Positions 3,754 to 13,841 are shown, counted from the first letter of the stretch. The stretch: 49,488 nt of DNA from an uncultured Acidobacteriota bacterium (GCA_903916735.1 CAIWXX010000047.1:1-49488), one strand, 5' to 3'. Notes: generated by a model not told the origin, from the letters alone. Numbers and translations are program-made.

Positions 3754-5094
3754 TTAGAAGCCGACCACAATCCTTCGATGACGCTTCAGCCAAATATAAC
3801 AGATCATGGGAATCAGCATCGAAACGAGCGACCAGATAACAATCCGGAAACCGGTCCCGATAATCATGAAGCACACAATGGTGAGGCCGATCAGAGTGAT
3901 CAGTATCTTCATCGATCGTCGATGTGGCGAGAACCTGGAAGGCTCCCTCTTTAAGAGCGCCACATAGGCGATGCATGCAGCGCCAATCGCGATGAGGGCG
4001 GTCGCCGTGGAAATCATCGCAACCTCATTGTAGGCCTGCAAGAGAGTGCGATTGTACGAAAGCGCGAGAAAAAGTGCCGCGACGAGAGATGAAAAAAACA
4101 GCGAAAGAGCCGGCGTCGCGAACCGGGGATGAACTCCTGCAAATGCTGCAGGCGCCAGGCCGTTGCGGGCGGCAGCGAAAGGAAGACGGCCTGTGACGAG
4201 GAGCCATCCATTGAGGGCGCCAAGGATCGAAACGAGCGCGCCAAGGCTGACGAGCGTCCGGCCGACCGATCCGAAAACATTTTCCGCAGCGACCGCCAGC
4301 GGACTGGCCGATCCGGCAATCGCACGTGCCGGCAAGCCGAACATGAGAGAGACCGCGATGAGGAAGTACAGCGCGGAGGCGATCGTGAATCCAAGATAAG
4401 CCGCCCGGCGAATCGTGCGGCCGGCCCCCACAACCTCCTCACCAGGAACCGTCACGGATTCGGATCCGAGAAAGAGCCATGCGACCATTGAGATGGATGG
4501 CAAGAGAGCGCCGCAGCCATGGGGCGCAAACGGGATCGCATTGGAGATTCTTGCGCGCGCAAGTAACGGCACGGAGAGGAAAAGCAACGGAAGCACCTTC
4601 AGGATCATCGCGGCTGCCTGCACGCGAGCGCCCAGTTTCACTCCGATGATATTGATGATTGTGAAGCCCCATAGAAGGGCCTGTGCCACACTGAAGGCCG
4701 GCCACTGGGCATTCAGCGCGGGGAAAAAAACCGCCAGATAGCCGACGGCGCTGATGGCCATCGCGGCGTTGCAGCTGACGCAGCTGAACCAATAGAGGAA
4801 AGCCGTCTGAAGCTCGGCATGTTTCCCAAAAGCGCGGCCGACGAATGCCTGCGGCCCTCCCGTCACAGGAAAGGCTCCGCCCAGGTCAGCGAAAACAACC
4901 GCCAGGCTCAAAAAGGCGGCTGCGCAGATGATCCAGGCAAAAATCGACACAGGCCCGGCGATAGTCGCCAGCGAGGCTGGGATGACGTAGACACCCGATC
5001 CAACAATGTTGCCAGCCACAAGCGAGATCGCTGCGACCGGCCCGATGCCTCGGACGAGTCGGCCGGTGCCTTCAGTTTTCAAATTTTGGTTCAA
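3754..5094 (-). CDS. APC-superfamily amino acid permease/antiporter (AdiC/YjdE-like)
   Basis: Integral membrane protein of 446 residues with about 12 hydrophobic spans. The first helix carries G-N-I-V-G-S-G-V-Y-V-I-P, the substrate-backbone-binding signature of amino acid/polyamine/organocation transporters such as AdiC and PotE. Length matches that family (about 440-450). It is the first gene of a two-gene minus-strand unit with the PRMT-like methyltransferase. The substrate is not determinable; basic amino acids or their decarboxylation products are the best-known cargo of its closest-looking relatives. The 284 bases between its start and the plus-strand DMT transporter at 5379 form a divergent intergenic region in which I recognise no specific site. 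Confidence 0.85.
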   Translation of the reverse strand: MNQNLKTEGTGRLVRGIGPVAAISLVAGNIVGSGVYVIPASLATIAGPVSIFAWIICAAAFLSLAVVFADLGGAFPVTGGPQAFVGRAFGKHAELQTAFLYWFSCVSCNAAMAISAVGYLAVFFPALNAQWPAFSVAQALLWGFTIINIIGVKLGARVQAAAMILKVLPLLFLSVPLLARARISNAIPFAPHGCGALLPSISMVAWLFLGSESVTVPGEEVVGAGRTIRRAAYLGFTIASALYFLIAVSLMFGLPARAIAGSASPLAVAAENVFGSVGRTLVSLGALVSILGALNGWLLVTGRLPFAAARNGLAPAAFAGVHPRFATPALSLFFSSLVAALFLALSYNRTLLQAYNEVAMISTATALIAIGAACIAYVALLKREPSRFSPHRRSMKILITLIGLTIVCFMIIGTGFRIVIWSLVSMLIPMICYIWLKRHRRIVVGF

Positions 5095-7196: not shown

Positions 7197-8663
7197 CTAT
7201 ATCTCGGCATTCGTCGGAAGAACCGACATTCCCCACTTTCGAGCCTCGGTCAGCATGATTTCATCGAGGCGATGGGCCACGGGAGAATCCAAGGGAGGAA
7301 TATTCGCTTTGGCCAGACGCCTTTTGACTTCGGCTGTCGCTGCTTGATGAGCGTACAACCCGCCACGCGTCTCCCAATCGCCGTATGTATCGCGCGTCAC
7401 CAGGCTCGATGGTACTGAGAGCTCACTGCGCCAGAACTTGCGCGTATGCGGGTGAGAGAGAAACTCGGCGACATGAACAACCTGATCCACAAGAGCGACA
7501 GCATCGCCGTCGCGTTTTTCGATGCCGCGGGCGAGGCGGAGGGCCATCCCGCAGACATCATGATCGAGGAGAATCTTTTCGAGTGATTGGCAGATCTCAA
7601 AATCCAGCATTCCCGGGCCTGATACAACATTGATTCCGGCGAGTGCGGCGAGGACGGCGCCTATTCCGGATTCGAATCCGGCTTGGTAGTCAGGGCATTT
7701 CGCATCAGAAAGACCCATGTACGCATGAGTGGGCAGGCCTAGGTGTTTGCCGACTTGCGCATAGCCCACATCAATCATCATGGTTTCGATAGCGCCCATT
7801 GGTGTTGTACCGTAGCGCATGTCGAGCGCAGCGGGGGATCCGCCGTAGATAATCGGAGATCCGGGGTGAGCCATCTGATGGATGACGATGCCCGAAAGGC
7901 TCTCGGCACAATGCTGTACAATGGCTTCTCGTAGCGTCACCGGCGATGTCGCTCCCGTCAACGGCATCGACACCAACTCGGCCGGAATGCCCGATCGAGC
8001 GCAGTCGATGAGCGCTTGGCATGTCAGGTCACTCCACTTCAGTGGTGGGCTCGGGCAGCAGTCAAAGATCGCGAGTGGCAGACGCCTTAACTCTTCCGCG
8101 CTCCCCCGCACCGCTTCGAGCATGTTCCGCATTGGAGCGAAACCGTCCTTGCGAAATGTTCCTGTCACGACAGGCTTTCGACTATTGTTCAAAACAAGAT
8201 AAAGCCGATACCGGTCGGCAATCTCTTTGGGCACTTCCGACGGCGCCAATGCCGTCGATTGCGCAGCATAATAGGGTAGCCCATCGACGAGCCTGGCCAG
8301 ATTCACGGCATCTTGTGTTTTTACCTCACGACGCTTTCCCAGTCCCGCATCAAAGATGTGGATGGCCGCAGAGCCCGGATCAAAATGAACCCGATCGCCA
8401 CCGAGGTCCATCGCGATTTCGCGATCGCGGTTATACATGAGGATTCTGGAAGGCGCGGTGCTCACCGCACGCCTAGCCATCTTCTCATCCAGCAGGAAAC
8501 GTCCAGCCTGCTCAATGGCGCCGCCTTCCCGCAACAACCTCTTCGCTTCTTCGTTCTCGACAAGGACCCCTGTCTTGCTCAAGATCGTGCATGCTTCTCC
8601 CACAATCCTCTCGATATCAGCCTGGGAAAGCAGATTCAGAGTCGGGCGGATTTCTGCCGTCAT
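7197..8663 (-). CDS. MttB-family corrinoid methyltransferase, non-pyrrolysine type
   Basis: Protein of 488 residues resembling the trimethylamine:corrinoid methyltransferase (MttB) family, with the characteristic N-terminus L-L-S-Q-A-D-I-E-R-I and the barrel segments usual for the family (for example G-A-T-S-P-V-T, P-I-I-Y-G-G-S-P). The frame runs unbroken, so there is no in-frame TAG for pyrrolysine. It therefore belongs with the non-Pyl members, such as those demethylating glycine betaine, proline betaine or carnitine. AAGGAG lies 8-9 bases before the ATG. It is the last gene of a four-gene unit with a corrinoid protein, a homocysteine methyltransferase and a MetH-activation-like protein, and would load the methyl group of an N-methylated substrate onto the corrinoid protein. 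The substrate is unknown. Confidence 0.85.
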   Translation of the reverse strand: MTAEIRPTLNLLSQADIERIVGEACTILSKTGVLVENEEAKRLLREGGAIEQAGRFLLDEKMARRAVSTAPSRILMYNRDREIAMDLGGDRVHFDPGSAAIHIFDAGLGKRREVKTQDAVNLARLVDGLPYYAAQSTALAPSEVPKEIADRYRLYLVLNNSRKPVVTGTFRKDGFAPMRNMLEAVRGSAEELRRLPLAIFDCCPSPPLKWSDLTCQALIDCARSGIPAELVSMPLTGATSPVTLREAIVQHCAESLSGIVIHQMAHPGSPIIYGGSPAALDMRYGTTPMGAIETMMIDVGYAQVGKHLGLPTHAYMGLSDAKCPDYQAGFESGIGAVLAALAGINVVSGPGMLDFEICQSLEKILLDHDVCGMALRLARGIEKRDGDAVALVDQVVHVAEFLSHPHTRKFWRSELSVPSSLVTRDTYGDWETRGGLYAHQAATAEVKRRLAKANIPPLDSPVAHRLDEIMLTEARKWGMSVLPTNAEI

Positions 8664-8711
8664 CGCGATCGCTCCTTTCCTGAGACAATTCTCATCGGTC
8701 GGTTTTCATCA

Positions 8712-9449
8712 TCAATTTTCTTCGAAGCGGCATCCCGCTTTCTCCCGCGGTGCATGCCGGTAGCGACAATGTTCAAGCTCGCATATCGAACAGCCCGCCT
8801 GCCCTGTGGAAGGGCGATCAGGCGTTCCGATCCACATTGCGAATGAGATCGATTTTCGGGGGATCATCATGAGGGAAGGCGCGAGGCTCACGCCGGCTCG
8901 CTCATGCGGCAACAACTCGAAAAGTTGTTTCTGCGCCGCCAGCAACCATTGACCGTAGCCCGGGCTGATGCGACACGAAACGTTCCCGGGCTTTTTCGCC
9001 GTCTCCCCGACGATGCGGGCACTGAGCCTATTGGCGGCTTCTTCCGCCGCGGCGCTGCCGGCGGCATCGAGAAGCACGGCCCGTGTCACCTCGCCGATTC
9101 CGAGCAACTCACTGACTCGTTGTTCAATCTCGGGCCCCGCGGTCACAAGGCCGATGACAAGCCGCTCAGCATTCTCGATAGGAAGCCCGATTCGAGGGGC
9201 GTCATCATTTGGAAGTGTTCGATAGACACCACACGCCCTCGCGAGTGATCGGGCTTCAGCAACCGCCTGTTCGAACTGCGCCGTGATACGGCCGCCAGGC
9301 GGGCGTCCTGTGGGGTAGCCAAGAAACTGAAGGACATCTTCAGGATCAATGACAAGATCGATTGTCGGGATGAATTGGGCTTCATCACGACCACGCAACT
9401 CCACCTCATCAACTCTCACAGCAGGGGATTCTCTGGACATAAGGCTCAT
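8712..9449 (-). CDS. MetH-activation-domain-like protein with C-terminal Cys cluster
   Basis: Protein of about 245 residues. Around residues 160-180 it has R-I-S-P-G-Y-G-Q-W followed by Q-K-Q-L-F-E-L-L, the signature of the AdoMet-binding activation domain of cobalamin-dependent methionine synthase (R-x-S-P-G-Y). The C-terminus carries C-S-I-C-E-L-E-H-C plus one further Cys, a possible metal or Fe-S site absent from E. coli MetH. Predicted role: reductive reactivation, with AdoMet as methyl donor, of the adjacent corrinoid protein when cob(I)alamin oxidises. The ATG at 9449 is taken; a TTG at 9452 and an ATG at 9440 are alternatives, and no good Shine-Dalgarno decides between them. It sits between the homocysteine methyltransferase (22 bases upstream) and mttB-like gene (48 bases downstream). 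Confidence 0.8.
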   Translation of the reverse strand: MSLMSRESPAVRVDEVELRGRDEAQFIPTIDLVIDPEDVLQFLGYPTGRPPGGRITAQFEQAVAEARSLARACGVYRTLPNDDAPRIGLPIENAERLVIGLVTAGPEIEQRVSELLGIGEVTRAVLLDAAGSAAAEEAANRLSARIVGETAKKPGNVSCRISPGYGQWLLAAQKQLFELLPHERAGVSLAPSLMMIPRKSISFAMWIGTPDRPSTGQAGCSICELEHCRYRHAPREKAGCRFEEN

Positions 9450-9470
9450 CAAGCTTGAGGCTCTGATTCT

Positions 9471-10361
9471 TCAGATTCCTTTTATGGATCGGCCAAGTCG
9501 TGAAGAGAGCGCGGCGATAAATCGAGGATCGGTCCCACAACATCCTCCAACAGCTTCAACACCGAGGGCTGCAATCGCGGCGGCGTCCTCAGCATAGGCT
9601 TCGGGAGTTTGAGCATAGTGGACGGATTCGCCGACCAGCTCGGGCGCACCCGCATTCGGCTGGATGACGAGTGGAAGCGTAACCGCAGCTCGTGCTTCTG
9701 CCGCCAGAAGCCGCATCTCGGAACTGGCGATACTGCAGTTCGCTCCGACAGCATCTGCTCCCGCTTCAGCCAAAGCCTTCATCGAAGCTGCCACAGCATT
9801 CCCCATAATCGTGAAAAACCCGCGCTTCTTCAACTCGAATGTCATCGAAACGAGAATCGGGATGTGCCGCACAGTGGCTTTCAGCGCCGTCAACGCCGCA
9901 ATAGCCTCCCGAAGATCACTCATGGTTTCCACGTGAATGGCGTCGGGACCGGCGGCGGCCAGTGCCCGACCCTGCTCTTCAAAGCTGCGATGCCATTCTT
10001 CGATATCGGCATTTCCAACCGGCGGAAGATATTCGCCGGTCGGCCCAACATCTCCGATGACGAAACTGGCTCCGGCCTCTCGAGCCAGACGAACAGCTTC
10101 GGTATTAATGCGCGCGCATTGATCGGCGAGTCCGAATTGGGCAAGGCGAATCGGTGTGGCCCCGAAAGTGTCGGTGTGAACCGCATCGCTACCCGCAACA
10201 ACGTAGGCACGATGAACAGAGGCCACATCAGCGGGTCTTTCCAGAACCCACGATTCGGGTGATGACCCGCGAGTAAGGCCTCGAGCGATCAGCATGGAGC
10301 CGAGGCCCCCGTCCAGGATGAGTGTGGGACCTGCTCTTAATCGTTCAATGAACGCGCTCAT
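9471..10361 (-). CDS. Homocysteine S-methyltransferase domain protein
   Basis: Single-domain (beta/alpha)8 barrel of 296 residues, the size of an isolated Hcy-binding domain (MetH N-terminal domain, BHMT, MmuM). Zinc ligands are visible as C209 (G-A-N-C-S) and C274-C275 (G-G-C-C-G-T). The N-terminus I-L-D-G-G-L-G-S-M-L matches the family. It starts 8 bases after the corrinoid protein gene, so it is almost certainly co-transcribed with it. In this context it should transfer a methyl group from methyl-Co(III) on the corrinoid protein to homocysteine, giving methionine. An MmuM-like activity with S-methylmethionine cannot be excluded from sequence alone, but the corrinoid neighbour makes the MetH-like role more likely. 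Confidence 0.87.
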   Translation of the reverse strand: MSAFIERLRAGPTLILDGGLGSMLIARGLTRGSSPESWVLERPADVASVHRAYVVAGSDAVHTDTFGATPIRLAQFGLADQCARINTEAVRLAREAGASFVIGDVGPTGEYLPPVGNADIEEWHRSFEEQGRALAAAGPDAIHVETMSDLREAIAALTALKATVRHIPILVSMTFELKKRGFFTIMGNAVAASMKALAEAGADAVGANCSIASSEMRLLAAEARAAVTLPLVIQPNAGAPELVGESVHYAQTPEAYAEDAAAIAALGVEAVGGCCGTDPRFIAALSSRLGRSIKGI

Positions 10362-10369
10362 CGGTACGC

Positions 10370-11017
10370 TCAGCGCCTGATGTCCGCAACAAGGGCTTCA
10401 GCGGCATGGACGGCTCTGAGAGCGTTCTCGGCATGACCCGCTCCGATTTCCTTCGCCCAGGCCGGAGTTGTCGGTGAGCCGCCGACGAGGACTCGAATCG
10501 ATTTGCTGAGCCCGGCGGCTCGGATCGCATCCACAATCGCCTTTTGCTCGGGCATGGTTGTCGTGAGGAGCGCGGACGCGGCGATAATATCCGCGTGAAC
10601 ATCGCGAGCCACTGCCAGGAATCGTTCGATGGGAACATCATTCCCAATGTCATGGACCTCAAACCCGTTAGCGCCCAGGAGAGTGCCGACCAGCGTTTTC
10701 CCGATGTCGTGCAGATCGCCGTGCACGGTTCCAATGACGACGCGTCCTTTGGACGCCAGCCCCGCTCGCCCGCGCTGCACCGCCGGAGTGATCAGGGACA
10801 TCGCCGCTTTCATGGCTTCGGCCCCTTGAACAAGCTCCGGGAGGAAATACTCGCCTTCTTCCCACAGGTCTCCAACACGTCGGATGCCCGCGGCAAACCC
10901 CTGTTCAACGACAGCAAGAAGATCTTCCCCTGAATCGACGGCGGCCTGCGCAAGATCCCTGGCCTTGTCGACATCGCCGTCTACAACTGCCTGCTTCATC
11001 TCAAGAAAATTTGGCAT
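10370..11017 (-). CDS. Corrinoid (methylcobalamin-binding) protein, MttC/MtaC type
   Basis: Protein of 215 residues with the standard two-part build. A helical cap (about 1-88; L-W-E-E-G-E-Y-F-L-P-E-L matches the family) is followed by a Rossmann-like B12-binding domain. D101-L-H103-D-I-G106 supplies the axial histidine, S148-A-L-L-T the second motif, and G179-G180 the third. It would carry the methyl group between the MttB-like demethylase and the homocysteine methyltransferase. It is the promoter-proximal gene of the unit; only 46 bases separate it from the upstream kinase stop, too little for a cobalamin riboswitch. Confidence 0.9.
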   Translation of the reverse strand: MPNFLEMKQAVVDGDVDKARDLAQAAVDSGEDLLAVVEQGFAAGIRRVGDLWEEGEYFLPELVQGAEAMKAAMSLITPAVQRGRAGLASKGRVVIGTVHGDLHDIGKTLVGTLLGANGFEVHDIGNDVPIERFLAVARDVHADIIAASALLTTTMPEQKAIVDAIRAAGLSKSIRVLVGGSPTTPAWAKEIGAGHAENALRAVHAAEALVADIRR

Positions 11018-11063
11018 ATTGCTTCCTCACTTGAGCTAAATATCTGCCGAACGCCGAGGCATG

Positions 11064-13841
11064 TCAAGACGAATGCCATTCATCCAACCAGAGATGATGT
11101 TCACGGCACAGCCTCACAAAAGGCTTTCTTCTATAACCCTGCCGTGCGATCTCTTGAATGAGAGGGCGTGCGTTGTCAACATGCCCAAGATGGAGAAATG
11201 CTGTGGCTTTGATGAGGCGAGGAAGCAGAAACCCTTCATCATCGGCCGGCAGAGACTCGACAAGCTTTACAGCGCGTTCCCACGCCCGATGAGATCCGGT
11301 CTGATCCCCATGGAGAGCATCCATGACTCCGACATCGATCAGCAAACGAGCATACTCGATACATGTTTTAGAATTTTGAGGGCTCTTGGCAAGATCATTT
11401 TCATCCATGCGGGACGCGCGTGAATACAGTTTCTCCGCCTCTTCATCGTGTTTCTGATCGCGTGCGAGATTGCCGAGTGCGTGGAGTGTCAATGCCACAT
11501 CAGGATGATCCTGCCCCAAAGCCTTTTCTTGAATATCGAGCGCCTGTGTCAGAAATTTTTCTGATTGCGCTACAGCCCCTGTGTCATGGCAATGGACGCC
11601 GAGATAATAATAGGTTGATGCCATATCGGGATGGTCCGGCTTGAGACTTTTTTCTTCGATCCTTAGGGCACGTAAATAGAAGCCTTCGGCGGTCTTATCG
11701 TTGCCTTTATCATCATAGATGAGGCCAAGGTATTTCAGCGTTGGAGCAGAATCGAGACTCGCCGGCCCGAACACTTTTTCATCGATTTTCAGTGCCCGCA
11801 TCAACAGACTCTCCGCCTGCGAATATTGGCCTTTGAGGCAATATAGAGCCCCGAGGTTATGGAGGGTCGTCGCCAGATCAGGATGCTCGGGCTCGATCAT
11901 GCGTTCGCGGATCCTCAGGGCGCGCCCGTAGTAAATTTCCGCCTGCGAATAATCACCCATGCTGCTATAGAGAGCGCCGAGATTGTTGAGTGTTGTCGCC
12001 ACTACCGGATGATCCGGCCCATAGATCTTTTCCTCGATCGCCAGCGAACGCAGGTAGGATCCCTGGGCTCGCTTGTAATCGCCCTTTTCATAATAGAGAA
12101 CGGCCAGAGATTCATTTGTGATGGCCAACTCAGGGTATTCCGGCCCGGCAATCTTCACCTCCATTTTCAATGCGCGCTGATAGTAGCTCTCAGCTTGAGC
12201 GTAATTGCCTTTGTAATAGGAAAGGACTCCGAGGTTATGAAGGACGGTGGCGACATCGAGGTGATCGTGTCCGAGTGCTTTTTCCCGGATTTTCAAAGCG
12301 CGCAGGTAAAAGCTCTCCGCTCGTGCATAATCGCCCTTATCATTATTCAGATTACCGAGAGCATTGAATGTGTTCGCCAGGTCGGGATGTTCCGGTCCAA
12401 GAACCTTTTCTTGAATTGATTCCGCCTGATGATAGAGGGATTCGGCTTTGTCGTAATCAGCCTGGCGTTGATGAACATTCGCCATATGAAAGAGCGAGAT
12501 CGCCACCTGCGCATCCTCAGTCGGCGAATATTTTTTCCGGAGGGCAAGGGCGGATTCAAGAAACCCCTTCCCTCTGTCATAGAGGCCGAGCTCGACATAA
12601 ATCGTGCCGAATGTATCGAGCATCCGTGCCAGGAGCAGAGGCTGATCCTTCAATTGAGCATCGGCTCTTTGCGCACCTCGATCCAGGAGTTCTCTTGCAG
12701 TCACCGTGTTACCTTCGGATTCAGTTGGGTCTGATACCTTGAAAACATCAATGAGAAATTGCGTCACCTGACGGGATGCTTCGGATTCGCGGCTTGCCCG
12801 ATTCGATTCCCGACGGATCCTGATGGCCTGGATTGTCATGATGACGGCAACGGAGGTGAGCACAACAACTCCTGCAGCCATGAGCCATTTTCGCAAATTC
12901 CGGCGCGGCTTCTCCTGGATCCATTCCAATTTCAACGCCGTATCGATGGCTGATGGGCGATTCGACGGCGCCAGCGACTTCAGCCGATTGATAAGGGCCG
13001 TCAGGTCCCGATCGAGCCCTGTGACAGGCAGAGTCTCAGCACGGCTTGCTTTTGCGAGTTGTTCATAAACATCCGGATTTTTCGCAGATGCCGGCGTGCC
13101 GGTGAAAAGCTCCTGGAGAACAAGACCGAATGAGTATAGATCGCTCGCTGGTGTCGCTATCTCACCGCGAGCCTGTTCAGGACTCATATACGAAAGGGTC
13201 CCAAGGACGAATCCCAGTTTTGTGACGAGGTACGCGGATTTCTCTTCTTCACGATGAGCCGCCTCCTTGTCGGAGAGAGGCACGGTCGCCTGTCCATCGG
13301 TGCCGGAGGGCAGATCAGGCGCCTTTGAAGCAGTGGCATTCGGACCGGCGACGTCCCCCTGAAGCACACAAGCCAGGCCAAAATCCAGCACCTTGACCTG
13401 ATTGTCCTTCGTGAGCATGATATTGCCCGGTTTGAGATCGCGGTGCACAATGCCCTGAGCGTGAGCAGCCGCCAGGACGTCCACGATTTGCCGGGCGATG
13501 CGATGCTTGACATCGTTGGTCAGCCCCTTCTTGATCGCATCCGTCAGCGTCTGCCCTTCGATGTACTCGAGTACAAGGAAATCCTGTTCACCACTCTCGA
13601 TGTAATCGTGAATCTGACAAATGTGGGGATGGCGGAGCTGAGAGAGAATGCGAGCCTCGCGCAGGAAACGCCATTTTGCTTCGGCGTCCAACCGATCTTT
13701 TTCGTGAATGACCTTGAGTGCCACTTGGCGCTGGAGCTTTTCATCAAACCCCATGTACACGGCACCCATTCCACCCCTGCCAATCTGGCCGATAACGCAA
13801 ATGTTGCCGATCTTCAATCCGATAAGGCTTTCTTCACTCAT
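11064..13841 (-). CDS. Membrane Ser/Thr protein kinase with TPR sensor/scaffold domain
   Basis: Protein of 925 residues. The kinase domain spans about 8-305: P-loop G21-R-G-G-M-G, Lys43, catalytic H133-R-D-L-K-P-G-N, D153-F-G and an S-P-E activation-loop end. An acidic insertion of about 45 residues (160-205) lies between DFG and the activation-loop end. A transmembrane helix follows at about 319-337, then an extracytoplasmic region with nine consecutive 42-residue TPRs (about 441-818) of the kinesin-light-chain/TPR_12 type. All active-site residues are present. The arrangement is a receptor-like Hanks kinase common in Acidobacteriota and related phyla. Its stop is 46 bases before the corrinoid operon, so read-through into that operon is possible. 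Confidence 0.92.
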   Translation of the reverse strand: MSEESLIGLKIGNICVIGQIGRGGMGAVYMGFDEKLQRQVALKVIHEKDRLDAEAKWRFLREARILSQLRHPHICQIHDYIESGEQDFLVLEYIEGQTLTDAIKKGLTNDVKHRIARQIVDVLAAAHAQGIVHRDLKPGNIMLTKDNQVKVLDFGLACVLQGDVAGPNATASKAPDLPSGTDGQATVPLSDKEAAHREEEKSAYLVTKLGFVLGTLSYMSPEQARGEIATPASDLYSFGLVLQELFTGTPASAKNPDVYEQLAKASRAETLPVTGLDRDLTALINRLKSLAPSNRPSAIDTALKLEWIQEKPRRNLRKWLMAAGVVVLTSVAVIMTIQAIRIRRESNRASRESEASRQVTQFLIDVFKVSDPTESEGNTVTARELLDRGAQRADAQLKDQPLLLARMLDTFGTIYVELGLYDRGKGFLESALALRKKYSPTEDAQVAISLFHMANVHQRQADYDKAESLYHQAESIQEKVLGPEHPDLANTFNALGNLNNDKGDYARAESFYLRALKIREKALGHDHLDVATVLHNLGVLSYYKGNYAQAESYYQRALKMEVKIAGPEYPELAITNESLAVLYYEKGDYKRAQGSYLRSLAIEEKIYGPDHPVVATTLNNLGALYSSMGDYSQAEIYYGRALRIRERMIEPEHPDLATTLHNLGALYCLKGQYSQAESLLMRALKIDEKVFGPASLDSAPTLKYLGLIYDDKGNDKTAEGFYLRALRIEEKSLKPDHPDMASTYYYLGVHCHDTGAVAQSEKFLTQALDIQEKALGQDHPDVALTLHALGNLARDQKHDEEAEKLYSRASRMDENDLAKSPQNSKTCIEYARLLIDVGVMDALHGDQTGSHRAWERAVKLVESLPADDEGFLLPRLIKATAFLHLGHVDNARPLIQEIARQGYRRKPFVRLCREHHLWLDEWHSS
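11388..12521 (-). repeat. Tandem 126-bp coding repeats (nine TPRs)
   Basis: The 3' part of the kinase gene is built of nine in-frame units of 42 codons. The consensus is roughly G-P-D-H-P-D-x-A-x-T-L-x-N-L-G, then Y-x-x-A-E-x-x-Y-x-R-A-L-x-I-x-E-K. The units are diverged at DNA level, so this is protein-level repetition rather than a recent satellite. Confidence 0.85.

Follow-up and report, generated by a model that had tools for sequence, protein, structure and literature searches.

Do four adjacent genes on a contig of an uncultured Acidobacteriota bacterium make up a methionine synthase that dispenses with folate? Cells as a rule make methionine with a methyl group from methyl-folate, and an operon of this kind would couple methionine directly to the degradation of N-methyl compounds. 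The window, the whole stretch of 49 488 nucleotides that was analysed, is contig C47 of host genome G000 (5.37 Mb, 98.7% complete). The features that we refer to below are as follows.

11039..11067, minus strand: candidate sigma-70-like promoter, TTGACA-17-GATATT, just upstream of CorC (consensus match only).
10370..11017, minus strand: CorC, 215 aa, stand-alone corrinoid (cobalamin) carrier of the MtgC/MtbC type, with His103 in DLHDIG.
9471..10361, minus strand: HMT, 296 aa, zinc homocysteine S-methyltransferase barrel of the MetH type, with C209, C274 and C275.
8712..9452, minus strand: ACT, 246 aa, stand-alone MetH reactivation (AdoMet-binding) protein with a C-terminal Cys cluster; weak PF02965 match.
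8764..8792, minus strand: C-x2-C-x4-C motif of ACT (Cys221, Cys224 and Cys229), within a low-confidence tail.
7197..8663, minus strand: MttB, 488 aa, non-pyrrolysine trimethylamine-methyltransferase-family protein (PF06253), the predicted methyl-donor enzyme.
3754..5094, minus strand: APC-family amino-acid permease (PF13520, 3e-47), a possible substrate transporter, here not contiguous with the four genes.

The four genes are adjacent on one strand, as the initial annotation had proposed. They are intact open reading frames on the minus strand from 11017 to 7197, in the order CorC-HMT-ACT-MttB and separated by gaps of 8, 18 and 48 nt. The residues that it singled out are all in place: His103 of CorC, Cys209, Cys274 and Cys275 of HMT and R161-I-S-P-G-Y166 of ACT. 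Pfam finds PF02607 (4e-22) and PF02310 (1e-23) in CorC; the MtgC/MtbC-like assignment is based on its top NCBIfam matches, MtgC and pyl_corrinoid, which lie below their cut-offs, and in the PDB it matches the TMA corrinoid protein 7xcn_M (5e-45). HMT is a PF02574 protein (E = 1.6e-65) with Thermotoga maritima MetH as its best PDB match (1q7m; 1e-43) and BHMT further away (1e-15). A BHMT-type direct use of betaine by HMT was rejected, as the MetH domains are closest and a corrinoid protein and an activator are encoded alongside. MttB matches PF06253 with E = 1.4e-79 (267.9 bits against a 25-bit cut-off), and its profile scores are similar for MtgB (9yce; 294 bits) and for the pyrrolysine MttB (307 bits). 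It carries a Leu at the position that pyrrolysine occupies in methanogen MttB and has no in-frame TAG, which bears out its annotation as a member of the non-pyrrolysine branch and led us to reject the pyrrolysine type. Rfam PYLIS_3 scores above threshold inside the non-pyrrolysine mttB genes of L039, L052, L066, L089, L093, L101 and L115, indicating that the Rfam model partly tracks mttB coding homology. A search for SAM and cobalamin riboswitches near the modules found none, so that control by methionine or cobalamin gains no support from this side. Directly upstream of the operon (11064-13841, minus strand) lies the gene of a TPR-rich Ser/Thr kinase of 925 aa, which is not conserved in the relative (L038/L061).

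ACT scores 20.7 bits against PF02965, below the 25-bit cut-off. Its profile matches T. maritima TM0269 (1j6r) with E = 2.8e-25, and its AlphaFold model (pLDDT 83.7) matches the same structure with E = 1.4e-11 and a TM-score of 0.77 by target length. In the alignment with MetH activation domains, Glu137, Arg161 and Tyr166 fall on the conserved E, R and Y, residues that serve as AdoMet ligands in Escherichia coli MetH. On its predicted fold and aligned residues, and with a Pfam score below the cut-off, ACT is classed as a reactivation protein of the TM0269/MetH type. A second in-frame ATG lies one codon downstream of its start.

From the computed gene content, motifs, linkage, absence of a folate partner and distinct HMT clade we infer the reactions of the operon. 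MttB would demethylate an N-methylated compound and methylate Co(I) of CorC; HMT, with zinc-bound homocysteine, would accept the methyl group from methyl-Co(III), yielding methionine and restoring Co(I). CorC that had slipped to Co(II) would be rescued by ACT through AdoMet-dependent reductive methylation, in the manner of the C-terminal domain of MetH; the Cys-cluster tail of ACT may carry or receive the electron. We consider it probable that the four proteins make up a B12-dependent methionine synthase of this kind, self-contained and independent of folate.

The arrangement is conserved. Species-representative genomes were scanned with an MttB alignment, together with relatives of the host, and the neighbourhoods were typed by HMMs made from the window genes. 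This genome search, which had been suggested as a check of the annotation, found the four genes contiguous in 40 loci, with an identical order in 35, which rules out chance. The order CorC-HMT-ACT-MttB on one strand is seen in the window, L039, L061-L063, L065-L069, L071, L073-L079, L086-L091, L093, L094, L101, L104, L105, L109, L110, L115, L117, L121 and L131; the other five loci (L042, L044, L046, L051 and L052) have MttB-ACT-CorC-HMT. The set is found in Acidobacteriota, Myxococcota (Myxococcales/Deltaproteobacteria), Krumholzibacteriota, Zixibacteria, Latescibacterota, Eisenbacteria, WOR-3 and Riflebacteria. MttB proteins of the sister modules are 45-76% identical to that of the window. 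Most loci share no common flanking gene, so the four genes themselves are the unit.

The initial annotation had read the operon as MetH split into single-domain genes, and this part does not hold. The host encodes a complete MetH of 1153 aa and a 616-aa HMT-MetF fusion (a MetE/PF01717 search of the genome found none), and with this folate-dependent MetH and the fusion present the module is dispensable for basic methionine synthesis in the host, which counts against the reading above. At L086 a complete MetH and an HMT-MetF gene follow immediately downstream of the module. In the phylogenetic tree a single clade (support 99/94) unites the HMTs of MttB-linked clusters with their close kin and excludes the N-terminal domains of MetH, the HMT-MetF fusions and alphaproteobacterial Bmt; the pterin-paired HMTs of Aminicenantes are nested within it. 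With MetH intact and the HMT clades distinct, a broken-up MetH was rejected. An HMT of the same clade directly follows AcsB-CdhD-CoFeSP-RACo in Aminicenantes G132 (L174), which suggests methyl transfer from CoFeSP to homocysteine; a similar transfer has been predicted for MesB, though the barrel here is of the MetH type. An HMT-MttB pair also occurs in an alphaproteobacterium: on a Terrarubrum flagellatum plasmid (L144), bmt and MttB-family genes are adjacent, next to genes for sarcosine oxidase.

The claimed absence of a folate domain from the operon was confirmed: no PF00809 protein is encoded on the window's contig, and thus no pterin-binding methyltransferase was found in the same transcript. 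In the whole host genome the pterin-binding domain occurs only in MetH and FolP, with no stand-alone partner besides FolP, and in a relative of the same family the sole non-FolP pterin domain likewise sits within MetH. We searched 49 genomes, 36 of them with the four-gene set, for PF00809, PF02574, PF01717, PF14574, PF02219 and PF05221. Seven of the 36 (G102, G107, G110, G114, G119, G123 and G127) have no MetH, no MetE/Mes and no pterin protein besides FolP. Five of these seven (G102, G107, G114, G123 and G127) also lack MTHFR, which every other four-gene genome has (p = 6e-5 for the joint absence). Incompleteness, gauged by FolP missing in 4 of 49 genomes, would account for both losses in 0.24 genomes, a rough estimate that assumes independent losses, an assumption violated by linked genes and poor bins. 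The five genomes, MAGs of unstated completeness from Zixibacteria, Eisenbacteria and Thermoanaerobaculia, all have AdoHcyase (PF05221) and thus make homocysteine. The module HMT is the sole PF02574 protein in G114, G123 and G127, and G102 and G107 have an additional, distant one. The module in five genomes that have no other recognized synthase supports a predicted re-methylation of homocysteine without methyl-folate, and is the strongest evidence for it.

The best supported of the alternatives, and one that we judge unlikely, is that CorC is a shared carrier as in the Ruegeria MtgBCDE system, exchanging methyl groups with a folate partner encoded elsewhere as well, so that the module would be a demethylase that feeds folate, with methionine secondary. 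Such sharing has been demonstrated genetically in R. pomeroyi (PMC12478193). The same parts lie beside a pterin protein in L043 and L084, where it is encoded within the CorC/ACT/MttB cluster, and many Krumholzibacteriota and Aminicenantes encode a stand-alone pterin protein; several of the Krumholzibacteriota have it elsewhere in a genome that also carries the module. Against a shared carrier, the non-FolP pterin domain of the host and its family relative is found only inside MetH, and FolP is the only pterin protein in 11 of the 36 four-gene genomes, including the complete chromosome G120 (which has no pterin partner but has MetE). The acceptor would be set by which partner is present, as MttB, ACT and CorC are found with a pterin protein too. 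The prediction of folate-free transfer from an N-methyl donor to homocysteine is thus favoured by the genomic evidence for the window and its sister modules, and is qualified by these swaps of acceptor in relatives.

PF02574 members vary in their acceptor and donor (MmuM and BHMT, for example), and the host has further methionine synthases. Both points would fit an HMT that methylates another thiol or selenol, or a module that serves catabolic demethylation alone and yields methionine incidentally. We regard this as improbable, since HMT is closest to the homocysteine domains of MetH (1q7m) and keeps all three zinc cysteines, and the five MTHFR-less genomes have AdoHcyase and no other recognized synthase. 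Least credible, and very improbable, is that CorC/MttB feeds the CoFeSP of the ACS/CODH cluster of the host, with HMT a side branch: the host does have AcsB-, CdhD-, CoFeSP- and RACo-like genes (L158) with no AcsE-like PF00809 protein in the genome, and the HMT of G132 follows CoFeSP-RACo, but the host module is not near the ACS genes and RACo occurs in only three of the 34 other module genomes with a Cys-type ACT.

The donor and acceptor enzymes seem to be exchangeable around CorC and ACT. In L054 (4631-5782) and L055 (9121-10215) a URO-D-family (MtaA-like) protein takes the place of MttB, while ACT, CorC and HMT are kept, as expected if exchangeable donors feed one acceptor. The usual arrangement in Aminicenantes is CorC-MttB, in some cases with ACT, lacking HMT and often beside RACo; some carry an HMT-pterin pair elsewhere (L145 and L146). 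The methyl donor is probably a betaine or an N-methylated amino acid, as hinted by the amino-acid permease: CorC/MttB clusters have an APC gene beside them in nine loci, several of them contiguous. This is the only recurrent transporter in the neighbourhoods, which have no catabolic gene in common, and gene neighbours gave no substrate assignment beyond it. Isochorismatase, thioredoxin-reductase-like and radical-SAM-like genes recur near the module in L069, L073, L075, L079, L081 and L089, mostly in Krumholzibacteriota. The host has a second, distant MttB (29% identical; L057, 6128-7591 on contig C156), which is near an MFS-like transporter, as read from sequence, and has no corrinoid protein nearby.

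The additional Cys cluster of ACT noted at the outset is present (Cys221, Cys224 and Cys229, with Cys241), in a tail that AlphaFold modelled at low confidence. A C-x2-C-x3-6-C motif near the C-terminus is found in 48 of 64 cluster ACTs, and nearly all of those without it come from CorC-MttB loci of the Aminicenantes type. Among ACTs that accompany MetH, both of the Acidobacteriota examples examined have no Cys tail and two clostridial examples have a related cluster, so the cluster is not unique to the module. RamA-type activases were said to be missing from the window; this is true of the window's contig, which has no PF14574 (RACo) protein, and the genome has a single RACo, inside an ACS/CODH operon with AcsB-, CdhD- and CoFeSP-like genes (L158, contig C24, 117500-128000; gene names read from sequence). 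RACo is encoded in ten of 12 genomes with a tail-less ACT versus four of 35 with a Cys-type ACT (p = 1e-5, with the two groups phylogenetically clustered). In all four Cys-positive genomes with RACo it is inside an ACS operon, and ACS-linked RACo genes are present in both groups, several in all. The Cys tail as a replacement for RamA was therefore set aside as a conclusion, the split being confounded by phylum and by RACo genes of ACS operons, and we retain it only as a hint. That the tail acts in redox chemistry is our hypothesis.

More tentatively, the module could represent a widespread and undescribed class of MetH-type, folate-independent synthases that are fed by MttB or, at some loci, by a URO-D-family protein, with an AdoMet-binding redox-Cys activator in place of RamA, and that, in some uncultured lineages, are the only means of converting homocysteine to methionine; we hold this broader claim as possible. 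An operon that couples methionine directly to N-methyl degradation would account for methionine regeneration in bacteria that lack MTHFR or MetH, and would bring a MetH-type enzyme into the group of folate-independent synthases. It would also offer a clean set of donor, carrier, acceptor and activator, with natural swaps of the donor and of the acceptor enzyme in plain view, and its Cys-tailed activator raises the question of how a corrinoid protein is reactivated without RamA.

The four-gene set was not found described in the open-access literature searched, and a description elsewhere is possible. One close counterpart is the MtgBCDE system of Ruegeria and Phaeobacter, which also has a separate MttB-family donor, corrinoid protein and homocysteine barrel and links N-methyl demethylation to methionine. 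In P. inhibens and R. pomeroyi the methionine synthase is split and includes a pterin subunit, with reactivation by RamA/DUF1638 (PMC5764234, PMC12478193), and the R. pomeroyi corrinoid protein serves betaine demethylation as well (PMC12478193). Homocysteine as an acceptor, which the initial annotation called unusual, thus has a partial precedent in R. pomeroyi MtgBCDE, where the folate subunit is needed (PMC12478193). MtgBCDE requires the pterin protein MtgD, is reactivated by RamA-like (DUF4445) and DUF1638 proteins and has mostly dispersed genes, whereas the module is one operon with a PF02965-type activator and no pterin subunit, in a host with no stand-alone PF00809 protein besides FolP and with its one RACo in the ACS operon; the alphaproteobacterial MttB proteins are ∼28% identical to that of the window and the module HMT belongs to a different clade. 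Compared with MetH (TIGR02082), the homocysteine, cobalamin and activation functions are present in the operon and the pterin function is absent. Desulfitobacterium MtgB/MtgC/MtgA and Eubacterium MtcB/MtpB/MtyB similarly pair a non-pyrrolysine MttB with a cognate corrinoid protein. In those systems the acceptor is tetrahydrofolate, via an MtgA-type enzyme, with activation of the RamA type, while the acceptor enzyme of the module is a homocysteine barrel. In T. maritima, MetH and TM0269 also have the reactivation domain as a separate protein, TM0269 (1j6r) being the closest structure to ACT; TM0269 serves a folate-dependent MetH, whereas the module ACTs mostly have a C-x2-C-x4-C tail. Type 1 mlp clusters have no folate enzyme, and methyl transfer to thiols has been proposed for them (PMC10418091). 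The core methionine synthases MesA-MesD are folate-independent and of the MetE type, and MesA-C are thought to use methyl-corrinoid proteins (PMC7857596, PMC7005905). The module would share with them the methylation of homocysteine without a folate domain; the Mes proteins have the PF01717 fold, whereas HMT is a MetH-type PF02574 barrel, and a donor enzyme, a carrier and an activator of its own are encoded with it.
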